A stretch of 64,000 nt of DNA from Sphingopyxis sp. GW247-27LB (GTDB taxonomy: Bacteria; Pseudomonadota; Alphaproteobacteria; Sphingomonadales; Sphingomonadaceae): the NCBI RefSeq assembly GCF_002277025.1, contig NZ_NIWD01000008.1, positions 861,280-925,279 on the forward strand, written 5' to 3'. The notes beneath the pieces are model-generated. The model ran no database searches, was not told the origin of the DNA, and saw only the letters and a program-made list of their open reading frames with translations. A program made the translations under genes and the position numbers. Positions 32,626-45,505 of the stretch are shown in pieces (the first letter of the stretch is position 1; every line of letters begins with the position of its first letter).

Positions 32626-33399
32626 TCATTCGGATGGGAGGACGCCCAATTCGGTGAGCAGGCGGTCGCGCAGCGTGTCGAACGCCTCGCCGCCCGCGCG
32701 GCGCGGGTGAGGCAGCGGAACGCGGGTGTCGAAGCCGATGCGCCCCTCTTGCAGCACCAGGATGCGGTCGGCGAGCAGGATCGCCTCCTCGACGTCGTGG
32801 GTGACCAGCAGCGTCGCCGGCCCGTGCGCCTGGCAGAGATCGCCGATCAGTCGCTGCATCCTGAGACGGGTGAGCGCGTCGAGCGCCGCGAAGGGTTCGT
32901 CGAGCAGCAGCAATTTGGGTTCGCGCACCAGCGCTCGGGCGAGCGCCGCGCGCTGCGCCTCGCCGCCCGACAGCGTCGCGGGCCAGGCGTCGGCGCGGTG
33001 ATCGAGCCCGACCTCGGCGAGTGCGGCAACGGCGCGGGTGCGCGATGCCAACGCGCGGGGCAGGCCGATGACGACATTCTTCCAGACGCTCTTCGACTGG
33101 ACGAGGCGGGGTTCCTGAAAGACGACGGTGCGCGCTTCGGGCACCCAGGCGTCACCGCCGTCGGGCGCGTCGAGTCCGGCCAGGATGCGCAGCAGAGTCG
33201 TCTTGCCGCTGCCCGACGCGCCGAGCAGCGCGACGAATTCGCCGCTGCGGATGGTGAGATCGAGCCGGTCGAGCACGGTGTTTCCCGAAAAGATGCGGCT
33301 GACCTCCGCGACGCGAACCGCGACCGGCGTGTGCGAGACATCGAGCGGCTGCGCCGCATGTGCTTCGACGGCGGGCCTGTAGGCAAGGACGGTGGACAT
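32626..33399 (-). CDS. ABC importer ATPase, SsuB/TauB-like
   Basis: A 257-residue ATP-binding protein. Walker A GASGSGKTT, signature LSGGEAQRAALARAL, Walker B LLLLDEPFAALD and the switch His in LLVTHDVEEAI are all present. The ATG at 33399 was chosen for its GGAG site 7 nt upstream; an in-frame start at 33426 would overlap the permease gene. It is the last gene of the TauD-SBP-permease-ATPase operon and powers uptake of an organosulfur compound. Confidence 0.88.
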   Translation of the reverse strand: MSTVLAYRPAVEAHAAQPLDVSHTPVAVRVAEVSRIFSGNTVLDRLDLTIRSGEFVALLGASGSGKTTLLRILAGLDAPDGGDAWVPEARTVVFQEPRLVQSKSVWKNVVIGLPRALASRTRAVAALAEVGLDHRADAWPATLSGGEAQRAALARALVREPKLLLLDEPFAALDALTRLRMQRLIGDLCQAHGPATLLVTHDVEEAILLADRILVLQEGRIGFDTRVPLPHPRRAGGEAFDTLRDRLLTELGVLPSE

Positions 33400-33409
33400 G
33401 CGAAATCTC

Positions 33410-34243
33410 CTATCGGATGGCGACACCCGCGCGCCACGGCATGAATGTCCGTTCGAGCGTGCGGACGATCAGGTCGGCGCCGAGACCGAGGGCGGCGTAG
33501 ATGGCGATGCAGATCAGGATGACGTCGACCTGCTGATACATTTGCGCGCTGTTGAGCAGATAACCGAGCCCCGCCGAGGCGTTGATCTGCTCGGCGGCGA
33601 TCAGCACGAGCACCGAGACGCCGAGGGCGAAGCGCAGCCCGGTGAAGATCTGCGGCAGCGCCAGCGGCAGCACCACCTCGCTCACCAGCCGCCGGCCCGA
33701 CAGGCCGAAGCTGCGCATCGCCTCGATCACCTTGCGGTCGACGTTGCGGACGCCCGCATAGCTGTTGAGATAGACGGGAAACATCGTCGCGAGCGCGATC
33801 AGCAGCAGCTTGGGCGCCTCGCCGATCCCGAACCAGACGATGAACAGCGGCACCAGCGCCAGGAAAGGAACGGTGCGGAGCATCTGGAGCAGCGCGTCGA
33901 GGAGCTCCTCGCCGAGCCGCGAGAGGCCGGCGACGGTGCCGAGGACCAGCCCCAGCAGGATTCCGGCCGCCCCGCCGGCGATCGCCCGCGTCAGCGACAC
34001 GCCGATCTGCGCGGCGAGCGCCTGTTCGGTCCAGAGCTGACTCCAGCCCTCGACGAGGCCGGACGGCGACGGGAGGATCGACGGGTCGATCCATCCCGCG
34101 CTCGTCGCGATCGCCCAGGCCGCGACGACCAGCAGCGGCCCCGCCGCGCGGCGCACAAAGGACAGTCGCTCCGACCGCCGCCCCGCCGGCCGGACGACCG
34201 GCTGGACGAGGGTGCCCGGATCGAGGATGGCGGGCGCGGTCAC
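33410..34243 (-). CDS. ABC importer permease, SsuC/TauC-like
   Basis: A 277-residue inner-membrane protein with about six hydrophobic segments. The ATPase-coupling EAA-type loop is EAMRSFGLSGRRLVSEVVLP. The GTG start overlaps the stop of the binding-protein gene (GTGA). It is a typical aliphatic sulfonate/taurine/nitrate-type permease. The ligand class is inferred from the TauD partner. Confidence 0.88.
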   Translation of the reverse strand: MTAPAILDPGTLVQPVVRPAGRRSERLSFVRRAAGPLLVVAAWAIATSAGWIDPSILPSPSGLVEGWSQLWTEQALAAQIGVSLTRAIAGGAAGILLGLVLGTVAGLSRLGEELLDALLQMLRTVPFLALVPLFIVWFGIGEAPKLLLIALATMFPVYLNSYAGVRNVDRKVIEAMRSFGLSGRRLVSEVVLPLALPQIFTGLRFALGVSVLVLIAAEQINASAGLGYLLNSAQMYQQVDVILICIAIYAALGLGADLIVRTLERTFMPWRAGVAIR

Positions 34244-35223
34244 GCCCCCGCCTCCTGCGCCGCGACGATGGCGTCGTAGCGCGTGTCGAAGACCTTGCGC
34301 GTGTCGAGCCTTCCGCGGATCAGTCCGAGGCGCGAGAAGAGGTCGGCCTCGTCCTGATGCGCGGCGATCACGCCGGCGTCGATCGGCGTATAATGCTGCG
34401 GCGACCGCGCGATGATCCGCTCTGCGATGTCAAGATCGACATTATAGCGCTTCGCGATCGCCGGCGCGGCTTTCTTCACATTCTCGCGCTGCCAGCGCTG
34501 CGCGCGTGCGGCGCGGGCGATCAGGTCGCCGATCGCTTTCGCTTTCGCGGGGTCGGCGAGCGCGGCGTCGGACGCGACCAGATACATGAAACCCGGCGTG
34601 TTGGGTCGCGCGCCCGTGGCGATGATCCGGATCTTCCCGCTGTCCTCGAGCTGGGTGAGGAAGGGTTCGGTCAGCACGATCGCGTCGGCCGCGCCCTTGT
34701 CGAGCAGGCCGGTGCCGAAGCCCGTCGCCTGCACCGGCTTGATATCGTCGAGCGACAGCCCTTCGCGTTCGAGTAGCCGCGCGACGAAATACTGAAGGAC
34801 GGTGCCCTTCATATAAGCAACGCTGCGACCCTTGAGATCCTTGACCGAGCGGATCGGCGAGCCGGGCTTCACGACCAGCGCGAAGCCCGATCCTTCGGCC
34901 GTCGCCGACTGGCTGACCGCGACGACCTTGATCGGGCTGCCGGCGGCCTGGGCGAAGATGACGGGGGTTTCCGCCATCCAGCCGACATCGACCGAACCAC
35001 CGGTCTGCGCCGCGATGATCGGCGGGCCGCCGACGAAGTTGGACCATTCGATCCGGTAACCCTCCGGCCGGTCCTCGCCCGCGACGTCGAGCGAGGATTT
35101 GAGGGCGTGGAGCTGGTCGGCGACCTTGAGCGTCACGCCCGCCGCGCCGCCGTCACCGCATGCAGCGAGCGCGAGGAACGCACCGGCGGCGAGCACGCCG
35201 CGCCGCGAAAAGGGAAATACCAT
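34240..35223 (-). CDS. ABC substrate-binding lipoprotein, SsuA/TauA-like
   Basis: A 327-residue periplasmic binding protein. The start MVFPFSRRGVLAAGAF leads into a lipobox ending LAAC, so it is an acylated lipoprotein. The NMT1/SsuA-type fold is seen from KVADQLHALKSSLDVAG through GKIRIIATGA. The weakly matched ribosome binding site is normal for an internal operon gene, and it lies 28 bp after the dioxygenase gene. It probably binds a sulfonate or sulfate ester. Confidence 0.85.
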   Translation of the reverse strand: MVFPFSRRGVLAAGAFLALAACGDGGAAGVTLKVADQLHALKSSLDVAGEDRPEGYRIEWSNFVGGPPIIAAQTGGSVDVGWMAETPVIFAQAAGSPIKVVAVSQSATAEGSGFALVVKPGSPIRSVKDLKGRSVAYMKGTVLQYFVARLLEREGLSLDDIKPVQATGFGTGLLDKGAADAIVLTEPFLTQLEDSGKIRIIATGARPNTPGFMYLVASDAALADPAKAKAIGDLIARAARAQRWQRENVKKAAPAIAKRYNVDLDIAERIIARSPQHYTPIDAGVIAAHQDEADLFSRLGLIRGRLDTRKVFDTRYDAIVAAQEAGA

Positions 35224-35251
35224 GGAAGAGAGCCTTTTTCGCTTGGCGGGA

Positions 35252-36136
35252 TCAGGCGCCGCCGGGGCCGACCGGGCGGTCGCCGACGATCGTGACGCGC
35301 TCCATATGGCGCGCCTCGCTATAGTCGGGGACGGCATAATGCTGGGTCGCGCGATTGTCCCAGAAGGCGATCGAGCCGGGCCGCCAGCTCCAGCGGACCT
35401 GGAATTCGGGGCGTTTCACCTGATTGAACAATAGCGCGAGCAGCGCGTCGCTCTCCGCCTCGGGCAGGCCGACGATGCGGCGCGTGAACACCGAATTGAC
35501 GTAGAGCACCTTTTCCCCCGTTTCGGGATGGATGCGGACGACCGGATGCTCGACGGGTGGGAAGGCTTTTTGCAGCGCGTCGCGCTTTTCCTCGGTGTCG
35601 AGGAATTGCAGGAAGGTGCGCGTGTCGTGGATCGCGGTCAGCCCGTCGATGCGCGCCTTCGTCTCCTCGTCGAGCGTATCATAGGCCGCGACCGCATTGG
35701 CGAAGACAGTGTCGCCGCCGAGCGACGGAGACACGCGCTGGAGCAGGATCGACGCCGCCGAGGGCTCGGCGCGGAAAGTGGTGTCGGCGTGCCAATTGCC
35801 GTCGCTGGTCCGGCGATAGCCGCCCGGCAGCCGCTCCTTCAGCTCGTCCGAAATCAGCGGAAGAATCTGCGGATAGTCGGGGAGCGAAAAGACCGGGTGC
35901 TCTTCGAGGTCGCCGAAGGCCGCGCCGAGCGCGATATGCTGTTCGCGCGTCAGATGCTGGTCGCGAAAGAAGATCACCCGATATTTGAGCAGGGCCGCGC
36001 GCAGCGCATCATAGGTCGGCCGGTCGAGCGGCTGCGCGAGATCGATACCCGTGATCAGCGCGCCGAGGCTCGGCTGCAGCGGGGTGATGTCGAAGAGAGC
36101 GGTGGAAGTGCGGTGGTCGAGCGTCTGGACGGTCAT
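35252..36136 (-). CDS. TauD/AtsK-family 2-oxoglutarate dioxygenase, copy 1
   Basis: A 294-residue Fe(II)/2-oxoglutarate dioxygenase. The metal ligands are HAD in NWHADTTF and the distal His in ATQHYAVPD, and the 2-oxoglutarate-binding Arg follows near RHMERVTI. The start at 36136 has an AAGGA site; upstream in-frame codons lie in the leader. TauD hydroxylates taurine to release sulfite, and AtsK does the same with alkyl sulfates. The sequence cannot separate these. It is the first gene of the importer operon and follows the structured RNA leader. Confidence 0.88.
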   Translation of the reverse strand: MTVQTLDHRTSTALFDITPLQPSLGALITGIDLAQPLDRPTYDALRAALLKYRVIFFRDQHLTREQHIALGAAFGDLEEHPVFSLPDYPQILPLISDELKERLPGGYRRTSDGNWHADTTFRAEPSAASILLQRVSPSLGGDTVFANAVAAYDTLDEETKARIDGLTAIHDTRTFLQFLDTEEKRDALQKAFPPVEHPVVRIHPETGEKVLYVNSVFTRRIVGLPEAESDALLALLFNQVKRPEFQVRWSWRPGSIAFWDNRATQHYAVPDYSEARHMERVTIVGDRPVGPGGA

Positions 36137-36291
36137 GGGAAATTCCTTGTGACGAAGCGGACGGGCGCCGGAACGGCGCGCGAACGGGCCGGCCATCGCG
36201 CGAAAAGGCGAGGCCGAAGAGGCGGCAGAATCCGCGGACGGGGCCGGGCGCGCGCTCGGGTTGGAGGTGGCGCGTCGCGGGCGGGTGCTTG

Positions 36292-36315
36292 CTATCGTGG
36301 CGGGGGGATGTGCAT
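36292..36315 (-). CDS. Tiny upstream ORF (MHIPPPR) in the sulfur leader, copy 1
   Basis: ATG plus six codons and a TAG. The AUG forms part of the 3' strand of the leader hairpin. A purine-rich GAGGUGAU lies about 6 nt upstream and would act as ribosome binding site, but it is paired in the hairpin. The second leader has an ORF of similar size in the same place, which argues for a role. The peptides themselves are not alike. Confidence 0.4.
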   Translation of the reverse strand: MHIPPPR

Positions 36316-36436
36316 CGTATCACCTCATCATCTGCTGAGGGGAACACGAAACCTGGCGCTGTCGCCTGAGCATCGCGCGCTTTAGCCGTTGGTGACGCGG
36401 AGCAAGCTGCTTCCCGATCAAAAGCCGCGGACCCGA
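36315..36436 (-). promoter_or_regulatory. Structured RNA leader (riboswitch-like), copy 1
   Basis: The minus-strand sequence matches the plus strand of 38904-39017 over 92 nt with 8 differences. Predicted by eye: hairpin AGCA-GCU-UGCU; arms CGCG (36396-36403 region) and CGCG around a conserved ACCAACGGCUAAAG loop; hairpin GGCG-ACAG-CGCC; an enclosing GGGAA/UUCCC stem (36411-36415 with 36340-36344); and a terminal hairpin (UCGUGU/AUACGA and CCUCA/UGAGG, 36315-36349) that shares bases with the enclosing stem. Mutually exclusive stems are the usual layout of a riboswitch. It precedes the TauD-ABC operon. Confidence 0.7.
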
Positions 36437-36478
36437 AAGAATCGCCAGCCGGCCCGGGTCGGTTCCGGCTGCAATCTC

Positions 36479-36507
36479 AATTTGATCGGTAGACATATTG
36501 CCGTCAA
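36479..36507 (-). promoter_or_regulatory. Sigma-70-like promoter of the TauD-ABC operon
   Basis: On the minus strand: TTGACG (36502-36507), 17-nt spacer, CAAATT (36479-36484). The -10 is weak. The same TTGACG and spacing occur in the promoter of the second leader copy. Transcription would begin about 40 nt before the structured RNA. Confidence 0.45.
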
Positions 36508-36625
36508 GCATAGATTCGCTTTACACTCGCAAAGCGTCGCAATGCTCGCCCGCCTCGTCGCCGGAGGGGACCGGCGCGGCAAGGCGCATGGCAAGAGCCG
36601 CGGTGCGGCACGAAGGAGATGGACG

Positions 36626-37972
36626 TTGCGCGGCTGGATATTCTTCCACCGGGATCTCGACCCGGCCTTGCCCGAGGTTCCTGAGATCCTGCGCTTCAAG
36701 GAGGCCGCCGCGGCGCGCGGCATCGCGTTGCAGGTGCTGAAGCCGCATGATTTCGATATCGTCGCGGCACCGCATGACGACTGGTCGGTGCATTATGAGG
36801 GGCGCTCGCTCAAGCGGCCCGATTTCATCCTGTGCCGGACGGGCGCCGAAACCGATTATTTCACGCTGGCGGTGCTGCGCCATTTCGAGCGGCGCGGAGT
36901 GCGGCTGATCAACGGGTCGGAGACGATCGACCTCGTCGCCGACAAGCTGCACACGATGCAGCGGCTCGCGCGGGCGGGGCTTGCCATCCCGGCGACGATG
37001 CTCGGCAAATTCCCGATCGACGCCGACGTCATCGAGCAGGAGCTGGGCTTTCCCGTCATCGTAAAGACGCTTCGCGGCACGCGCGGGACGGGGGTGCTGA
37101 AATGCGAGGATCGCAACCAGTTCGCCGATCTCGCCGGGCTGCTCGCCAGCGCCGAGGCGAAGGCCGATTTCCTGTTCCAGCATTATGTGCGGTCGAGCCA
37201 CGGCCGCGACGTGCGCGTGCTCGTCATCGGCGGGCGCGTGATCGCGGCGATGGAGCGCCGCGCGCCGCCGGGGCATTTCAAGTCCAACGTTTCGCTCGGC
37301 GGCGTCGGCGTTGCGCATACGCCGACGGGCGAGATGGCCGAGCTCGCCGTGCGGGCGGCCGATGCCCTTGGGCTCGAGGTCGCGGGGATCGACATATTGT
37401 TCGACGAGGAAGGCTATCGCATCTGCGAGGCCAATTCGGCACCGGGCTTCCAGGGGCTGGAGCGCGCCTGCGGGATCGACGTGCCGGGCGCGGTCTTCGA
37501 CTGGATCGAGGCGAGCCACGCGATGCAGGCGCGCCCGATCAAGGCGGTCACGGGCGAGGCGCTGATCGACCTCGTCTTCGGTGGCCGGCTGCGCCTGCGC
37601 GCAATCAGCGACCGGCTCGACGATCGGCACCTGTTCGCGCGCGCCGCCGGGGTGCGGCTGATCGGTGCGGGGGCGGCATCGCTTGTCACCTCGCTCGTGC
37701 CGTCGAGCCGGATCGAGAAGCACAGCCTCGTCGCGAGCCGCCTCGAGCATCTGCGCGCCGACGCGCGCGGCGTGCCGCTGGCGCCCGGCAACGCGATCGA
37801 ACAGGAACAGGTGCTGCTCACCCTGCTCGCGGTCTCGATCTGGGCCGCGATCCTGCCGTGGCTGGCGGGCGCCGGGTCGCTGGTCGCCGGGGCGCTGTCG
37901 CTGCTCACCCTCTCTTTCCCGGCCGTCTTCCTGCTCACGCGCGGGCGAGGGCGGCGGGAGCCGGCGCGATGA
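36626..37972 (+). CDS. RimK-type ATP-grasp ligase with C-terminal membrane segment
   Basis: Starting at TTG 36626, seven nt after AGGAG; the product is 448 residues beginning MRGWIFFHRDLDPALP. ATP-grasp signatures of the RimK/GshB type are VIVKTLRGTRGTGVL, RDVRVLVIGGRVIAAMER and GIDILFDEEGYRICEANSAPG (metal-binding Asn). Such enzymes join a carboxylate to an amine using ATP, for example glutamyl or gamma-peptide ligation. The last 60 residues carry two hydrophobic stretches, so it is likely anchored in the membrane. It is translationally coupled to a TauE/SafE permease and lies between two sulfur operons. Product unknown. Confidence 0.72.
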   Translation: MRGWIFFHRDLDPALPEVPEILRFKEAAAARGIALQVLKPHDFDIVAAPHDDWSVHYEGRSLKRPDFILCRTGAETDYFTLAVLRHFERRGVRLINGSETIDLVADKLHTMQRLARAGLAIPATMLGKFPIDADVIEQELGFPVIVKTLRGTRGTGVLKCEDRNQFADLAGLLASAEAKADFLFQHYVRSSHGRDVRVLVIGGRVIAAMERRAPPGHFKSNVSLGGVGVAHTPTGEMAELAVRAADALGLEVAGIDILFDEEGYRICEANSAPGFQGLERACGIDVPGAVFDWIEASHAMQARPIKAVTGEALIDLVFGGRLRLRAISDRLDDRHLFARAAGVRLIGAGAASLVTSLVPSSRIEKHSLVASRLEHLRADARGVPLAPGNAIEQEQVLLTLLAVSIWAAILPWLAGAGSLVAGALSLLTLSFPAVFLLTRGRGRREPAR

Positions 37973-38760
37973 TTCCCGGGACCGAATTGTCCTTTGCGGC
38001 GCTGCTTCCCTTCATCCTCATCGGCTTCACCGCGCAGCTTATCGACAGCGCGCTCGGCATGGCCTTCGGCGTCGTCGGCGCGGCGCTGCTGCTCGCGCTC
38101 GGCATGCCGCCGGCGTCGGCGTCGGCCGCGATCCATGCGGCGGAGAGCTTTACCAGCGGCGTGTCGGGGCTCAGTCACGCGCTGCAGAGGAACGTCGACT
38201 GGCGGCTGTTCCGCCGCCTCGTCGTCCCCGGCATCATCGGCGGACTGATCGGCGCTTTCATCCTCGTCCATCTCGACATCGGTATCGCGCGGCCCGTGGT
38301 GCTGACCTATCTGGGGGCGGTCGGCGTCTATCTGATGTGGCGCGGCGCGCGGCGGCCGCAGACCTATCGCGATCTCAAACTCGTCGGCGGTCTCGGCTTC
38401 GTGGGCGGCGTTCTCGACGGGTCGGGCGGGGGCGGCTGGGGGCCGGTGGTCACCGCGAACCTGCTCGCGCAGGGCGGCGAGCCGCGGCGGGTGATCGGCA
38501 CGGCCAATGCGTCCGAATTCTTCGTGACGGTCACCATCGCCGCCAGCTTCATCGGAACGCTGGGCTGGCAGAGTTTCGGCGTCATGGCGATCGGGCTGCT
38601 GATCGGCGGCGTCCTGGGAGCGCCGGTGGGGGCCTGGCTCGTGCGCCGGCTGCGCGCAGAGCTGATCGTTACCGCGGCGGGCGCGCTTCTCCTGCTGGCG
38701 AGCGGCTATGGATTCCTGGCGCTGATGTTCGAGCCGGTGCCCGCTTTCCCGCGATTTTGA
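37969..38760 (+). CDS. TauE/SafE family sulfite/sulfonate permease
   Basis: A 263-residue protein with about eight membrane segments in two similar halves. The first begins LPFILIGFTAQLIDSALGM and the second GGLGFVGGVLDGSGGGGWGP, which is the family repeat. The ATG overlaps the stop of the ATP-grasp gene (ATGA). Known members export sulfite or sulfoacetate. Since TauD-type enzymes release sulfite, export of excess sulfite is a sensible role here. Confidence 0.82.
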   Translation: MIPGTELSFAALLPFILIGFTAQLIDSALGMAFGVVGAALLLALGMPPASASAAIHAAESFTSGVSGLSHALQRNVDWRLFRRLVVPGIIGGLIGAFILVHLDIGIARPVVLTYLGAVGVYLMWRGARRPQTYRDLKLVGGLGFVGGVLDGSGGGGWGPVVTANLLAQGGEPRRVIGTANASEFFVTVTIAASFIGTLGWQSFGVMAIGLLIGGVLGAPVGAWLVRRLRAELIVTAAGALLLLASGYGFLALMFEPVPAFPRF

Positions 38761-38824
38761 CGCGCCGCAAGCATCGACTGGCCGCCTGAAAGATTTTCTT
38801 CGTCGCAAAAGCGGGCGATGAATG

Positions 38825-38853
38825 TTGACGAATCCAAAATCAATCTTTTAAGT
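38825..38853 (+). promoter_or_regulatory. Sigma-70-like promoter ahead of the second RNA leader
   Basis: TTGACG (38825-38830), 17-nt spacer, TTAAGT (38848-38853), in the only AT-rich patch of this intergenic region. A transcript would start near 38860, about 45 nt before the structured RNA. Confidence 0.55.
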
Positions 38854-38903
38854 TGAGTTTGTTGTTCGGACCTGGTCGAGACGGGCAACGGCTCTCCCCA
38901 TCG

Positions 38904-39017
38904 ACCCGCGGCTTTTGACCGGGAAGCAGCTTGCTCCGCGTTACCAACGGCTAAAGCGCGTGATGCTCGGGCGACAGCGCCAGGCATTGCGTTCCCCCAG
39001 AAGGGGTATTGCGATGC
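38904..39017 (+). promoter_or_regulatory. Structured RNA leader (riboswitch-like), copy 2
   Basis: Plus-strand copy of the element at 36315-36436. The enclosing stem is GGGAA (38921-38925) with UUCCC (38992-38996). The terminal hairpin is GCAUUGCG (38984-38991) with UGCGAUGC (39010-39017), plus CCCC/GGGG inside. Compared with copy 1 the hairpin sequence differs but pairing is kept, that is, compensatory change. Bases UUCCCC are needed by both the enclosing stem and the hairpin, so they are alternatives. The hairpin hides AAGGGG and an AUG. It precedes the TonB receptor-TauD2 operon. Confidence 0.72.
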
Positions 39018-39040
39018 GTATGTGTAGCAGCAGTTCATAG
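39014..39040 (+). CDS. Tiny upstream ORF (MRMCSSSS) in the sulfur leader, copy 2
   Basis: ATG plus seven codons and TAG. AAGGGG at 39001-39006 would be its ribosome binding site and is paired in the leader hairpin, as is the AUG. The peptide has one Cys followed by four Ser, which would fit translation-dependent sensing of Cys or Ser supply. That reading is inference. Confidence 0.45.
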   Translation: MRMCSSSS

Positions 39041-39373: not shown

Positions 39374-41818
39374 ATGACGAAATATTCTCCCGCTTTCCGT
39401 TTCAAGCTCCTGCTGGGCGCCGCCGTCCTGTTGCCGTCGGCGCCCGCGTGGGCGACCGAAGTCGCGGCCGCCGCCGAAACCCGTACCGGCGACGCCGCGG
39501 CTTCGGAAGCGGCTGCGGCCGACAGCGCCGCGACCGAGGCGGCGGTCGAGGCCGACTATGCCGACACGATCATCGTATCGGCGCGGCGCCGCGATGAAAG
39601 CGCCCAGGACGTTCCCATCGCGCTGTCGGTCGTCGGGGCCGACACGCTCGAGGCGACGGGCAATTACACGCTGTCGCAGGTGCAGCAACTCGTGCCGAGC
39701 CTGCAGGTGTTCAGCTTCAACCCGCGCAACACCAACATCAACATCCGCGGTCTCGGCAGCAATGTCGCGCTGACCAACGACGGGCTGGAGAATGGCGTCG
39801 GCTTCTATATCGACAATGTTTATTACGGCCGCCTCGGCCAGTCGCAGTTCGACCTTGTCGACCTGCAGCAGATCGAGGTGCTGCGCGGGCCGCAGGGTAC
39901 GCTGTTCGGCAAGAACACGACTTCGGGCGCGATCAACATCAGCTCGCGAAAGCCGAGCTTCGATCCCGAATTCTCGGGCGAGGCGAGCGTCGGCGACTAT
40001 GGCTATTATCAGTTGCGCGGCTCGGCCTCGGGGCCGCTCGTCGACGATCTGCTCGCGGTGCGGCTTTCGGGTTCGGTGACCGAACGGCGCGGATTCCTTT
40101 ACAATGTCACGCAGAACGCGCGCGCGCAGGGTTATTCGAACTGGAGCGTGCGCGGACAGTTGCTCTTCACGCCCTCCGCGGACCTCGAGGTGCGGATCAT
40201 CGGCGACTTCGCGCGTCAGAAGCAGAACCACGTCCTCAACGTCTTCGCCAATTATTACGACACTTACGTCGATGGCACCCCCATCCCGAACAATTTCGCC
40301 GAGCGCGTCGCGCGCTATCCGGGCTATGCCTTCCCGACCATCGACCCCTTCGCGCGGCGCGGCGAGGCCGATAGCCATTATCAGTCGAACATGGACGGCT
40401 ATGGCGTGTCGGGACAGGTCGACTGGGACGTCGGGCCGGCGAAGCTGACCTCGATCACCGCCTATCGCTGGTGGAACTGGAATCCCGCGAACGACGGCGA
40501 TTCCACATCGCTGCCGGTCGTCACGCTCGCGCAATTCTCGAACCGCCAGCGCCAGTTCAGCCAGGAATTCCGGCTGGCCTCAGATACCGACGGCCCGATC
40601 GATTATGTCGTCGGCGCCTATTATTTCTGGCAGATCATCCGCGGTTCGGGTCGCACGGGCTACGGCAGCGCGGCGCCCGCCTGGTTCCTGCCGACGGTGC
40701 CCGCCAATGTCGCCGCGCTGGCGCTCGACGGCTTCGAGGTCAATCCGCGGTCGGACCCCCAGACCAGAAGCCTAGCCTTCTTCGGCCAGGCCGACTGGAA
40801 GATCGGCGATCGCCTCACCCTGACCGCGGGCCTCCGCTTCACCCACGAGAAGAAGAAGGGGTCGTTCAGCCAGGTCTGGGTGGCCGGGGCCGATCCTGCG
40901 ACGCTGCCCGACGCGCTGGCCGCCGCCGTCATCAACATCCGCAATCTGTTCAGCCCCGAAACCAGCTATTCGACCGGCTTCAGCGACGACAGCCTGTCGG
41001 GCCTCGCGACGCTGTCGTGGCAGGCGAGCGACGATCTGCTCGTCTATGCAAGCTACGCGCGCGGCAACAAGTCGGGCGGCCTCAACCTGACCAACCTGCC
41101 CACCGGGGTCGACCCCGACGTCGCGCCCGAGACGGTCGACAATTACGAAATCGGCATCAAGTCGCAATGGCTCGACAGGGCGGTGACGCTGAACGCCGCC
41201 GCCTATTGGACCGAGATCACCGACTATCAGACCGCGATCTTCGAGCAGGTGTCGGAGATCAACTATCGCCAGTATATCGCCAACATCCCCGGCGCGCGAT
41301 CGCGCGGCATCGAGGTCGACCTGTCGGCGGCGCCGACCGACCGGCTGAGCTTCTACGGTTCGCTGGCCTATACCGACACCACCTATCTCAGCTATCCCGA
41401 AGCCCCGCAGGCGCCCGAGCGGGCGAACGAGGGCGGCAATCAGGACCTGACCGGCAAGCGCCTGCCCGGCGTGCCGAAATTCACCTGGACGGTCGGCGGC
41501 GACGCTTCCGCGCCGCTGGGCGCGCTCGGCGGGCGCGAACTGTCGCTCTATGCCCACGCCGACTATTCGCATCGCTCGTCGTTCAACACCTCGTCGAGCA
41601 ACAGCATCTACGCCGAAGTGCCCGGCTACGGCATCGCCAACGCGCGCATCGGCCTGCGCACCGAGGACGGCCTGCTCGACCTGTCGGTCTGGGCGCGCAA
41701 CCTGTTCGACAAGGATTATTTCCAGACGCTCGGCGCGATGCCCGGCGCGACCGGCATCGTCACCGCGCTAATCGGCGAGCCGCGCACTGTCGGCCTGACA
41801 CTGCGGACGAAGCTCTGA
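39374..41818 (+). CDS. TonB-dependent outer-membrane receptor (organosulfur operon)
   Basis: An 814-residue receptor. Signal peptide MTKYSPAFRFKLLLGAAVLLPSAPAWA is followed by an Ala/Glu-rich linker, TonB box-like DTIIVSARRRDESAQDVP, and a plug with IEVLRGPQGTLFGKNTTSGA. The barrel ends in TVGLTLRTKL. It lies downstream of the structured RNA and 91 bp before a TauD-family gene. It probably imports a sulfonate, sulfate ester or larger sulfur-containing ligand too big for porins. Confidence 0.9.
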   Translation: MTKYSPAFRFKLLLGAAVLLPSAPAWATEVAAAAETRTGDAAASEAAAADSAATEAAVEADYADTIIVSARRRDESAQDVPIALSVVGADTLEATGNYTLSQVQQLVPSLQVFSFNPRNTNINIRGLGSNVALTNDGLENGVGFYIDNVYYGRLGQSQFDLVDLQQIEVLRGPQGTLFGKNTTSGAINISSRKPSFDPEFSGEASVGDYGYYQLRGSASGPLVDDLLAVRLSGSVTERRGFLYNVTQNARAQGYSNWSVRGQLLFTPSADLEVRIIGDFARQKQNHVLNVFANYYDTYVDGTPIPNNFAERVARYPGYAFPTIDPFARRGEADSHYQSNMDGYGVSGQVDWDVGPAKLTSITAYRWWNWNPANDGDSTSLPVVTLAQFSNRQRQFSQEFRLASDTDGPIDYVVGAYYFWQIIRGSGRTGYGSAAPAWFLPTVPANVAALALDGFEVNPRSDPQTRSLAFFGQADWKIGDRLTLTAGLRFTHEKKKGSFSQVWVAGADPATLPDALAAAVINIRNLFSPETSYSTGFSDDSLSGLATLSWQASDDLLVYASYARGNKSGGLNLTNLPTGVDPDVAPETVDNYEIGIKSQWLDRAVTLNAAAYWTEITDYQTAIFEQVSEINYRQYIANIPGARSRGIEVDLSAAPTDRLSFYGSLAYTDTTYLSYPEAPQAPERANEGGNQDLTGKRLPGVPKFTWTVGGDASAPLGALGGRELSLYAHADYSHRSSFNTSSSNSIYAEVPGYGIANARIGLRTEDGLLDLSVWARNLFDKDYFQTLGAMPGATGIVTALIGEPRTVGLTLRTKL

Positions 41819-41909: not shown

Positions 41910-42863
41910 ATGACGGACCTTCACACCAGCTATGCCAATGCCCGCGACAAGACTATCCCGCTCGACGTCACGCCCGTGACGGGCACGATCGGCGCCATCG
42001 TGAACGGCGTCCAGCTCTCGGGCGACCTGCCCGCGGCAACGGTGCAGGCGATCCAGGCCGCGCTCGTGCGCCACAAGGTGCTCTTCTTCCGCGATCAGCA
42101 GCATCTGACCGACCGGGAGCATGAGGATTTCGCCGCGCTGCTCGGCGATCCGGTCGCGCACCCGACGGTGCCGGTCGCCGAAGGCTCGCGCTATCTGCTC
42201 GAGCTCGACAGCAAGGAAGGCTATGCCGCGTCGAGCTGGCACACCGACGTGACCTTTGTCGATGCCTATCCCAAGGCGTCGATCCTGCGCGCGCTCACCA
42301 TTCCCGAAGCGGGCGGCGATACGCAATGGGCGAACGGCGAGACCGCCTATGAAGGGCTGCCCGAGGTGCTGCGCCAGCTCGTGAACACGCTCTGGGCAAC
42401 CCACACCAACCTCTATGACTATGCGTCGATCCTCCAGTCGGCGCCCGATGGCGAAAGCGCGGCAAAGCGGATCAAGGAGCATCAGGGCGTCTTCGCCTCG
42501 ACGGTCTATGAAACCGAGCACCCGGTGGTGCGCGTCCATCCGGTCAGCGGCCAGCGCAGCCTGCTGCTCGGCCATTTCGTCAAGCAGTTCGTCGGACTGA
42601 ATGCCACCGACAGCGCGCGGCTGTTCCAGACGCTGCAGGAGCATATCACCAAGCCCGAGAATGTCGTGCGCTGGCGCTGGCGCGCGGGCGACGTCGCCAT
42701 CTGGGACAATCAGGCGACCCAGCACCGCGCGACCGCCGACTTCGGGCTGCAGCGCCGCACGCTGCGCCGCGCGACGATCGCCGGTGAAGTGCCGGTCGCG
42801 ATCGACGGCCGCCGGAGCCGCACGGTGCGCAAGGACAAGGCGGTTCAATACGAGCCGGCCTGA
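41910..42863 (+). CDS. TauD/TfdA-family 2-oxoglutarate dioxygenase, copy 2
   Basis: A 317-residue Fe(II)/2-oxoglutarate dioxygenase. Metal ligands are HTD in SWHTDVTF and the His in ATQHRATADF. The 2-oxoglutarate Arg is in RRTLRRATIAG. The ATG follows AGGAGATC. It is diverged from copy 1, so a different substrate is likely. It shares an operon with the TonB receptor, which suggests that the imported ligand is desulfonated or desulfated by it. Confidence 0.85.
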   Translation: MTDLHTSYANARDKTIPLDVTPVTGTIGAIVNGVQLSGDLPAATVQAIQAALVRHKVLFFRDQQHLTDREHEDFAALLGDPVAHPTVPVAEGSRYLLELDSKEGYAASSWHTDVTFVDAYPKASILRALTIPEAGGDTQWANGETAYEGLPEVLRQLVNTLWATHTNLYDYASILQSAPDGESAAKRIKEHQGVFASTVYETEHPVVRVHPVSGQRSLLLGHFVKQFVGLNATDSARLFQTLQEHITKPENVVRWRWRAGDVAIWDNQATQHRATADFGLQRRTLRRATIAGEVPVAIDGRRSRTVRKDKAVQYEPA

Positions 42864-44465: not shown

Positions 44466-45203
44466 ATGACCCGCCTGTTTGCCGCCGCCCTGTTCGCCTT
44501 GTCGGGACTCGCCGTTCCCGCTGCCGCGCAGGAGGTGCCGACCGGCCCGATCGACGTGTCGGGCGGGGTCGAGGTCGTCACGGACTACCGGTTCCGGGGG
44601 ATTTCACTCAGCGGCGGCGACGTCGCGGTGCAGCCGACGATCACGCTCAGCCACGACAGCGGCCTCTATCTCGGCGCATGGGGATCGACCATCGAGGATA
44701 CGCCGGCGTTCGGCGAGGCCGAGGTCGACCTGTACGGCGGCTATGCGACCGAAGTCGCGCCGGGAACCTCGATCGACCTCGGGCTGACCTATTATTGGTA
44801 TCCGGACGGCGAGCGCGCCGCGGGCCCGAGCGACTATGTCGAGGCGACGGGCAAGCTGTCGCACATGCTGGGGCCGGTCGAGGCGACGGCGCGGCTCAGC
44901 TATGCGCCGAGCCAGGCGGCGATCGGGCATGACGACAGCCTCTATCTGGCGGCCGACCTGTCGGCGGGCATCCCGACCACGCCGCTGACGTTGTCGGCGT
45001 CGGCCGGCTACACCGACGGCGGGCTCGCCGCGCTCGCGCCGGGCGGGCATTATTGGGACTGGTCGCTCGGCGCCTCGGCGAGCTTCGGCCGGCTGACCGC
45101 CGGCATCAAATATGTCGACACCGACATTCCAACGACGGGGGTGAAGGCGGTCGACAAATATTTCGATTCGGGCGTAGTCCTGTCGCTTGGGCTGTCGTTC
45201 TAG
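44466..45203 (+). CDS. TorF family putative porin, copy 1
   Basis: A 245-residue outer-membrane beta-barrel protein. The signal peptide is MTRLFAAALFALSGLAVPAAAQ. The family signature GGVEVVTDYRFRGIS appears near the start of the mature protein, followed by SHDSGLYLGAWGSTI. It ends in the aromatic residue of SLGLSF as expected for barrel assembly. It is a tandem paralogue of the gene at 46174. The TAG stop lies at the very edge of an inserted element. Confidence 0.88.
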   Translation: MTRLFAAALFALSGLAVPAAAQEVPTGPIDVSGGVEVVTDYRFRGISLSGGDVAVQPTITLSHDSGLYLGAWGSTIEDTPAFGEAEVDLYGGYATEVAPGTSIDLGLTYYWYPDGERAAGPSDYVEATGKLSHMLGPVEATARLSYAPSQAAIGHDDSLYLAADLSAGIPTTPLTLSASAGYTDGGLAALAPGGHYWDWSLGASASFGRLTAGIKYVDTDIPTTGVKAVDKYFDSGVVLSLGLSF

Positions 45204-45209
45204 GCGGCG

Positions 45210-45505
45210 TGGACAAATTTGAGCCAGTATCTGGCGGTGGCCAGTGTCCGCCATGATCTCAGCGAGCGTCACGGCAACGGTCTCCCAGACCCCGGCCTCG
45301 CTCCATCGCCGGAACCGCCGATAGATGGTATTCCAACTGCCATACTTGTTGGGGGGCATCGCGCCACGGCGCACTGCACCGGAGCCGCCAGAGTATGCCG
45401 TTGATGATCGAGCGTTCTGCTCGGGAGGCCGCCACGACCACGGTTCTCAGGCTCGATCGGCAGTAAGCCCTTTAGAACGCGCCATTCCGCCGCGCTCCAC
45501 GTCAA
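45210..45505 (-). pseudogene. Remnant of an IS5-family transposase
   Basis: Pieces in different frames spell the N-terminal domain of IS5-type transposases: SAAEWRVLKGLLPIEPENRG, then a shift, RSIINGILWRL and APWRD, then another shift, NKYGSWNTIYRRFRRWSEAG and VWETVAVTLAEIMADTGH. The catalytic DDE core is missing because the frame runs straight into the terminal repeat. It cannot be active by itself. Confidence 0.75.

Follow-up and report, generated by a model that had tools for sequence, protein, structure and literature searches.

What kind of RNA stands in front of two organosulfur operons that begin with different genes, and how might it control them? The question is raised by a 64,000-nucleotide stretch of the Sphingopyxis sp. 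GW247-27LB genome (contig NZ_NIWD01000008.1; "the window" below means this whole stretch), in which an original prediction had placed two copies of a riboswitch-like RNA. One copy lies ahead of a TonB-dependent receptor gene (38906–39013, plus strand; the TonB copy), comprises a predicted aptamer and switching hairpin and ends at the start of a short leader open reading frame (ORF); the other lies ahead of a TauD-family dioxygenase gene (36316–36430, minus strand; the TauD copy). Judged by sequence, each is a diverged RNA of the SAM-II type, linked to that class of S-adenosylmethionine (SAM) riboswitches by scores and ligand-contact nucleotides, and not an unrelated new class. The reading we favour, with a probability of roughly 60%, is a SAM-II-type riboswitch whose alternative folds would gate the leader ORF, lowering expression of the sulfur operons when SAM is plentiful.

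The two copies and their link to SAM-II

The copies are identical at 84 of 92 positions (minus 36430–36339 against plus 38906–38997), as originally counted; among 300 random pairs of 92-mers from the window, the maximum is 39 identical positions. The 4.79 Mb genome holds exactly two copies (BLAST E 6.9e-58 and 2.1e-31, next best 0.5). Each sits between a promoter-like box and its operon, TTGACG-17-TTAAGT for the TonB copy (38825–38853, plus) and TTGACG-17-CAAATT for the TauD copy (36479–36507, minus), so that the predicted TTGACG elements with 17-nucleotide spacing were recovered, with weak −10 boxes.

In the TonB copy, stem P1 is formed by CGCGG (38907–38911) and CCGCG (38936–38940). The loop-1 strand GGGAA (38921–38925) pairs with UUCCC (38992–38996) to form P2a, and GCUAAA (38950–38955) would, by homology to SAM-II and SAM-V, be the 3′ strand of the ligand-binding helix P2. 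A hairpin, P3 (38958–38992, arms 38958–38967 and 38983–38992), is inserted between CUAAAGCGC and the P2a strand, with position 38992 common to P3 and P2a. The terminal hairpins differ in sequence between the copies and still pair, as had been claimed. GGGAA/UUCCC had been proposed as an enclosing stem that uses the same bases as this hairpin; the UUCCC strand is indeed common to both, but the pairing crosses CGCGG/CCGCG and is thus a pseudoknot. The nested reading was dropped in the light of the SAM-V paper (PMC6061858), as was a first P2 register, GCUU/AAGC.

At curated cut-offs Rfam gives no match in the window, and relaxed searches return merely unrelated chance matches such as mir-1343, RFPL3-AS1_2 and sbcD. 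The SAM-V model, which we take to be RF01826, matched in no Rfam covariance scan of the window or of the relatives' loci made here. The SAM-II model (SAM_alpha, RF00521) scores at the motif in 13 of 20 relatives' loci, with 21.3–33.8 bits (E≤2; best at L087) and in every case below its cut-off of 36, and four of the 20 carry a separate match upstream of the motif. Conversely, R2, a covariance model built from 53 non-sphingomonad copies, finds both window copies (49.4 and 47.2 bits) as its sole matches in that genome at E≤0.001, and R1, built from sphingomonad copies only, finds non-sphingomonad relatives.

In SAM-V the ligand is held by U8–U10, A18, U19, U20, U47 and A48–A50 or neighbouring pairs, and SAM-II is reported to bind SAM almost identically (PMC6061858). 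The equivalents of these contacts, UUU, CUUG and CUAAA, are retained: among 84 loci found by BLAST or model, UUUG and CUUGC each occur in 83, and GCUAAAG in all 84 as a consequence of a filter that demanded GCTAAAGCG. Because of the reciprocal detection by R1 and R2, the SAM_alpha scores below cut-off and the kept contact nucleotides, we regard the element as a diverged SAM-II-type RNA, with SAM as the best guess for its ligand. SAM was the first of the sulfur metabolites named in the original prediction, whose interpretation is partly supported.

We do not file the window copies under RF00521, because they fail to reach the 36-bit cut-off and differ from the family in loop 3 and in the position of P2a. 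Loop 3, of 11 nucleotides in the Rfam consensus, has 9 in 72 of the 73 sphingomonad loci and in 66 of 81 others (7–8 in the remainder), and P3 intervenes where in SAM-II P2a would follow directly after CUAAA. A match to a known family, which the original prediction had named as counting against it, is thus half present: the RNA is related to such a family, yet Rfam's models miss the window copies. RF00521 exceeds its cut-off in 123 of 289 genomes of the class and in none of 119 genomes of the family; the best score in the window's genome is 17.6 bits, on a different contig, and a sub-threshold match in another family genome (24.8 bits, G107) falls on the aligned copy L057. Among the 68 R2 sites that score 45 bits or more, judged by eye, 3 overlap an over-cut-off match and 6 have one just upstream of them.

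Relatives and covariation

Relatives were sought at widening taxonomic range, with the window genome counted throughout. BLAST over 298 family genomes gave matches in 53 at E≤0.01 and 36 at E≤1e-6, and 49 copies entered the sphingomonad alignment from which R1 was built. R1 matched 13 of 196 genomes of the order (E≤0.01), 66 of 289 of the class at E≤0.05 (53 at E≤1e-5) and 10 of 249 of the phylum (E≤0.001), all ten labelled as the same class or closer; some of its weak matches are canonical SAM-II. R2 matched 67 of the 289 class genomes at E≤0.001, with 68 sites in 54 genomes at 45 bits or more; another 22 are listed below that score, and 21 of these coincide by eye with over-cut-off canonical SAM-II. 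Scanning named genomes for the pattern gave at least 119 stretches, of which 80 are listed as loci; genera among the listed matches include Novosphingobium, Sphingomonas, Sphingopyxis, Azospirillum, Bosea, Microvirga, Roseomonas and Methylopila, and one match (L141, a metagenome-assembled genome) is in a record titled Actinomycetota.

The resulting set holds 73 sphingomonad and 82 other loci, split by hand from kinship and record titles. Left out of the counts were L069, L070, L071, L076 and L092 (no GCTAAAGCG at the expected place, L092 being a genuine match lost through an offset), L058 (a chance BLAST match) and 21 hand-named loci (duplicates, near-duplicates and the truncated L186); other near-duplicates stay in.

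Covariation is found in P3 and P2a, which answers the comparative check proposed at the outset and upholds the idea of two mutually exclusive folds in a conserved, covarying cis-regulatory RNA near sulfur genes. In the sphingomonad alignment the structure including pseudoknots pairs 89.3% of cells, its covariation score is reached by none of 500 shuffles, and the number of pairs with two-sided change is matched by 12 of 500 (computed with the earlier P2 register). Two-sided changes affect 5 of 7 P3 pairs and 3 of 4 P2a pairs in the non-sphingomonad alignment, again with a score reached in 0 of 500 shuffles; the count of further pair types there is not above shuffles (211/500). P2a complementarity over all 155 loci exceeds that of all 200 permutations (mean score 10.45 vs 9.14), with variants GGGAA/UUCCC, GGGAU/AUCCC, GGUC/GACC, GGGC/GCCC and GGAGC/GCUCC. 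For the non-sphingomonads the mean score likewise exceeds the permutations, but the share of loci with at least four pairs (0.63) is below the permutation maximum (0.65). RNAalifold on alignment A2 gave merely 13 pairs, and the automatic P3 finder chooses wrong hairpins in some loci (e.g. L030, L033–L036, L093).

Leader ORFs and the proposed direction of switching

Directly 3′ of both copies lie short ORFs that the original prediction lacked: MRMCSSSS at 39014–39040 (plus; relatives MRMCNSIN in L072 and MRMCSTIN in L114) and MHIPPPR at 36315–36292 (minus; relatives MHIPPPR in L061 and MHILPQR in L150). Read from its best start, the ORF has no more than 15 codons in 49 of 73 sphingomonad loci, compared to 31 and 25 in the other frames, and the chosen start has a good Shine-Dalgarno score in 73 of 73 sphingomonad and 68 of 82 other loci. 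Among 47 non-sphingomonad ORFs of at most 50 codons, 38 contain Cys (35 and 16 in the other frames) and 24 have a C..C cluster (1 and 1), with ends such as CCCRT, CRCRR, GCCCCN and CCRCRRA; Cys codons near the ORF end, a feature of Cys attenuators, occur in many of these relatives. Behind 27 variant sites found by R1 there are 18 short ORFs, 12 with Cys and 9 clustered, compared to 3, 1 and 0 behind 18 canonical SAM-II sites, though the start windows differed slightly and a Shine-Dalgarno threshold was applied on the variant side alone. Of the 20 canonical sites fetched, 2 had no anchor, and 2 more were mis-anchored and are the source of two of the three short ORFs.

The Shine-Dalgarno sequence and start codon of the first ORF are complementary to the 3′ arm of P3 plus the P2a strand and can pair with them instead, so P3 masks an anti-Shine-Dalgarno; in the TonB copy the alternative hairpin spans 38983–39016 and pairs the P3 arm and UUCCCC with AAGGGG and the AUG region. 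The best duplex contains at least three Shine-Dalgarno pairs in 127 of 127 loci (a count without a null). Start-site pairing energy is better than with other loci's start sites for sphingomonad short ORFs (p = 2e-9), other upstream ORFs (p = 0.002) and loci with a gene directly behind the RNA (p = 2e-4), and pairing is stronger than with shuffled strands in all four locus groups.

Under the favoured reading SAM would be the ligand, the choice of fold would set ribosome entry at the leader start, and translation of the leader would in turn decide whether the TauD–ABC or the TonB–TauD operon is made, possibly by way of the C-rich spacer and perhaps through Rho or reinitiation. In relatives, ribosomes may stall at the Cys codons near the leader end. 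The net outcome would be less operon expression when SAM is plentiful.

Several results weigh against this reading. In a search of 156 bases with the TonB copy, SAM_alpha gave no match even with the limit relaxed to E 10. P1 and P2 yield no covariation, because both hardly vary: their strands are complementary in nearly all loci yet invariant, P1 nearly so in sequence, and the non-sphingomonad alignment has no variation in them at all. Shine-Dalgarno pairing in sphingomonads with a first ORF of 41–80 codons does not exceed that with the starts of other loci (p = 0.4). Shortness is not frame-specific in non-sphingomonads, where 44 of 68 loci have 35 codons or fewer, compared to 50 and 34 in the other frames. 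The window leaders are not Cys-rich (one Cys in MRMCSSSS, none in MHIPPPR), nor do sphingomonad short leaders have a clear Cys excess (28 of 801 codons compared to 76 of 826 and 15 of 849). Intrinsic-terminator attenuation was compared with shuffles and is unsupported, since terminator-like sites behind the leaders are not enriched (12 of 47 and 11 of 62, with 8.7 expected in each case). Spacer C-richness is only suggestive of Rho: the C/G ratio is 1.33 in 19 non-sphingomonad loci, above that of the gene (p = 0.0024), and 1.21 in 39 sphingomonad loci, not above it (p = 0.95). Lastly, the polarity is in conflict: when the aptamer fold (P1, P3 and pseudoknot strands) is enforced, 48 of 129 loci have a freer Shine-Dalgarno sequence and none a more closed one, against the presence of metZ, metX or cysG directly behind the RNA in some relatives.

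This conflict underlies the strongest alternative, in which SAM opens the leader ORF and finished leader translation shuts the operon, so that low SAM or low Cys would suffice to turn it on. The enforced-fold result is in its favour, as is the formation of P2a in SAM-bound SAM-V (PMC6061858). We consider this version rather unlikely. It would make SAM an activator at metZ, metX, cysG or OsmC–metY loci, several of them in tandem with canonical SAM-II. The enforced-fold test, moreover, is biased towards opening because it takes away the Shine-Dalgarno's pairing partners, and it ignores a possible canonical-like P2a (GGC/GCC inside GCGCC, aligned to canonical SAM-II CUAAAAGGUC) that would weaken P3 by invading its base. 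Where metZ, metX or cysG lies directly 3′ of the RNA, SAM should close. Closure of the leader (or gene) start by SAM, with the operon on only if SAM and Cys are both low, is accordingly the version we prefer, at slightly better than even odds; the placement of those genes, the occurrence of canonical SAM-II in tandem and a leader logic of the Rho or stall type all agree with it.

Decay or lack of translation of the sphingomonad leaders, with the RNA controlling the operon in a different way, would account for their poorly conserved sequences (MHIPPPR, MHILPQR, MRMTKTV) and absent Cys excess; we find it improbable, given that all 73 starts have a good Shine-Dalgarno score, the start region pairs with the switch strand and early in-frame stops are commoner than in other frames. 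Less probable still is a SAM-II fold re-tuned to another sulfur or adenosyl ligand, e.g. S-adenosylhomocysteine. A loop 3 of mostly 8–9 nucleotides, shorter than the Rfam consensus, could point that way, and the tandems with canonical SAM-II at 6 of 68 R2 sites (counting over-cut-off matches only) would be less redundant with two ligands; the nucleotides reported as SAM contacts are nevertheless retained, including those facing the sulfonium, and tandems of SAM-II and SAM-V likewise share one ligand (PMC9481103). A protein-bound RNA, or merely a DNA operator or leader attenuator with no metabolite sensing, is very improbable: the nearly invariant P1 and a palindrome upstream of 30 of 73 sphingomonad loci would fit it, but P3 and P2a carry compensatory changes and the core is of the SAM-II type.

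A broader version of the favoured reading, which we put forward tentatively and at somewhat less than even odds, is a two-signal gate across Alphaproteobacteria. Aptamer and anti-anti-Shine-Dalgarno hairpin would admit ribosomes and terminal Cys codons would report charged tRNA-Cys, so that one leader would integrate the availability of SAM and of cysteine in the control of Met, Cys and sulfonate genes. In sphingomonads the gate would have been retained and relocated to operons of TonB and TauD genes, with most of the Cys codons lost.

The element resembles canonical SAM-II (RF00521; PMC1273637) in P1, the U-rich loop 1, the GCUUGC/GCUAAA pseudoknot core and an association with Met genes in alphaproteobacteria. 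Unlike it, the RNA described here has a loop 3 about 2 nucleotides shorter, a P2a strand displaced behind the inserted hairpin, a short and often Cys-rich leader ORF, and sulfonate and TonB operons downstream. With SAM-V it shares an identical ligand-contact set and, as proposed here, translational control, but in most SAM-V the Shine-Dalgarno sequence itself lies in P2a (PMC6061858). The SAM-II long-loops model (RF01726) reaches 20.8 bits at L087, below its cut-off of 44, and that group is known from Bacteroidetes and marine samples (PMC2864571). Cys leader attenuators such as uORFC-8-2 before cysS (PMC8632094), like many of the non-sphingomonad relatives, have a short ORF with Cys codons clustered near its end; here there is no terminator enrichment and the ORF follows an aptamer. 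Mycobacterium B12 riboswitches also work with a short translated upstream ORF (PMC11260477), with another aptamer, ligand and phylum. At S. meliloti metA, SAM-II controls a start region far upstream of the used start codon, but AUG1 shares its reading frame with AUG2 of metA, and no separate leader peptide is made (PMC9373788). Table 1 of PMC4239095 leaves the SAM-II entry blank for Sphingomonadales, and some of the present relatives may be among the 44 tandem SAM-II cases of PMC9481103. A literature search outside subscription papers found no report of this SAM-II variant with leader ORFs. Sphingomonadaceae, in which the SAM-II model stays below cut-off in all 119 genomes searched, would thus gain a candidate for SAM sensing at sulfonate and TonB operons, and the SAM-II/V superfamily an architecture in which P2a is displaced by a hairpin masking an anti-Shine-Dalgarno. 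In relatives a metabolite aptamer and a Cys leader peptide occur together, so that sensing of both SAM and Cys by a single leader becomes directly testable.

Downstream genes and neighbouring features

In sphingomonads the RNA is followed by a TonB receptor gene at 37 of 73 loci and by a TauD or SsuA-like gene at 8 more. Elsewhere a Met, Cys or sulfonate label occurs among the first ORFs in 50 of 82 loci; the labels are our reading of gene clusters, of which ten representatives were tested (MetN-like, MetY, CysG, CysH, OsmC, MetX, MetQ, SsuA-type, MetA and a glutamine amidotransferase), some scoring below NCBIfam cut-offs. Homologues away from sulfur genes, which the original prediction had named as a point that would count against it, are a minority: 32 of the 82 carry no such label, some having no called gene or a small uncharacterised protein first, and some other genes (LysR-like included). 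Behind some copies lie genes that we take to be HemB-like, TctC-like and prolyl-tRNA synthetase-like, which are not sulfur genes; L053, a sphingomonad copy with a Cys-containing leader, presumably precedes such a synthetase ORF, an odd site for a sulfur switch.

Two kinds of small protein recur behind the RNA. In 16 of 73 sphingomonad loci (L038, L045–L048, L050, L051, L055, L056, L075, L077, L130, L147, L176, L177 and L185) the first ORF encodes a 46–61-residue product that contains the motif H(P/S)SW and has a C-terminus resembling FW.RLG; two tested gave no Pfam match, and the ORF may be either a long leader or a small protein. In 11 of 82 other loci (L102, L105, L116, L129, L140, L145, L158, L165, L170, L178 and L184) a protein of about 82–127 residues (cluster 3) lies 3′ of the RNA, several times before metN-like genes; one tested gave no Pfam match. 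The palindrome TCTAC-N5-8-GTAGA (at most one mismatch, within 140 nucleotides upstream of the RNA) occurs in those 30 sphingomonad loci (e.g. L022, L026 and L036), where 0.6 are expected by shuffling, and in 1 of 82 others; it is probably the operator of a sulfur regulator.

In the window, the minus-strand operon begins with the TauD-family dioxygenase gene (35252–36136, taking the start at AAGGAAUUUCCCAUG, our choice; the longer ORF 35252–36196 was scanned), preceded by a C-rich untranslated spacer (36137–36291; C/G 1.71 over 154 of its nucleotides) and followed by genes for an NMT1/SsuA-like substrate-binding protein (34240–35337), an ABC transporter permease (33410–34243) and an ABC transporter ATPase (32626–33426). 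The plus-strand operon comprises the TonB-dependent receptor (39374–41818) and a further TauD-family dioxygenase (41910–42863), and between the copies lie genes for a RimK-like ATP-grasp protein and a TauE-like permease. Adjoining the TonB–TauD operon, an ORF at 44604–45374 (minus) has a partial match to DUF4096 (IS4/5 transposase).

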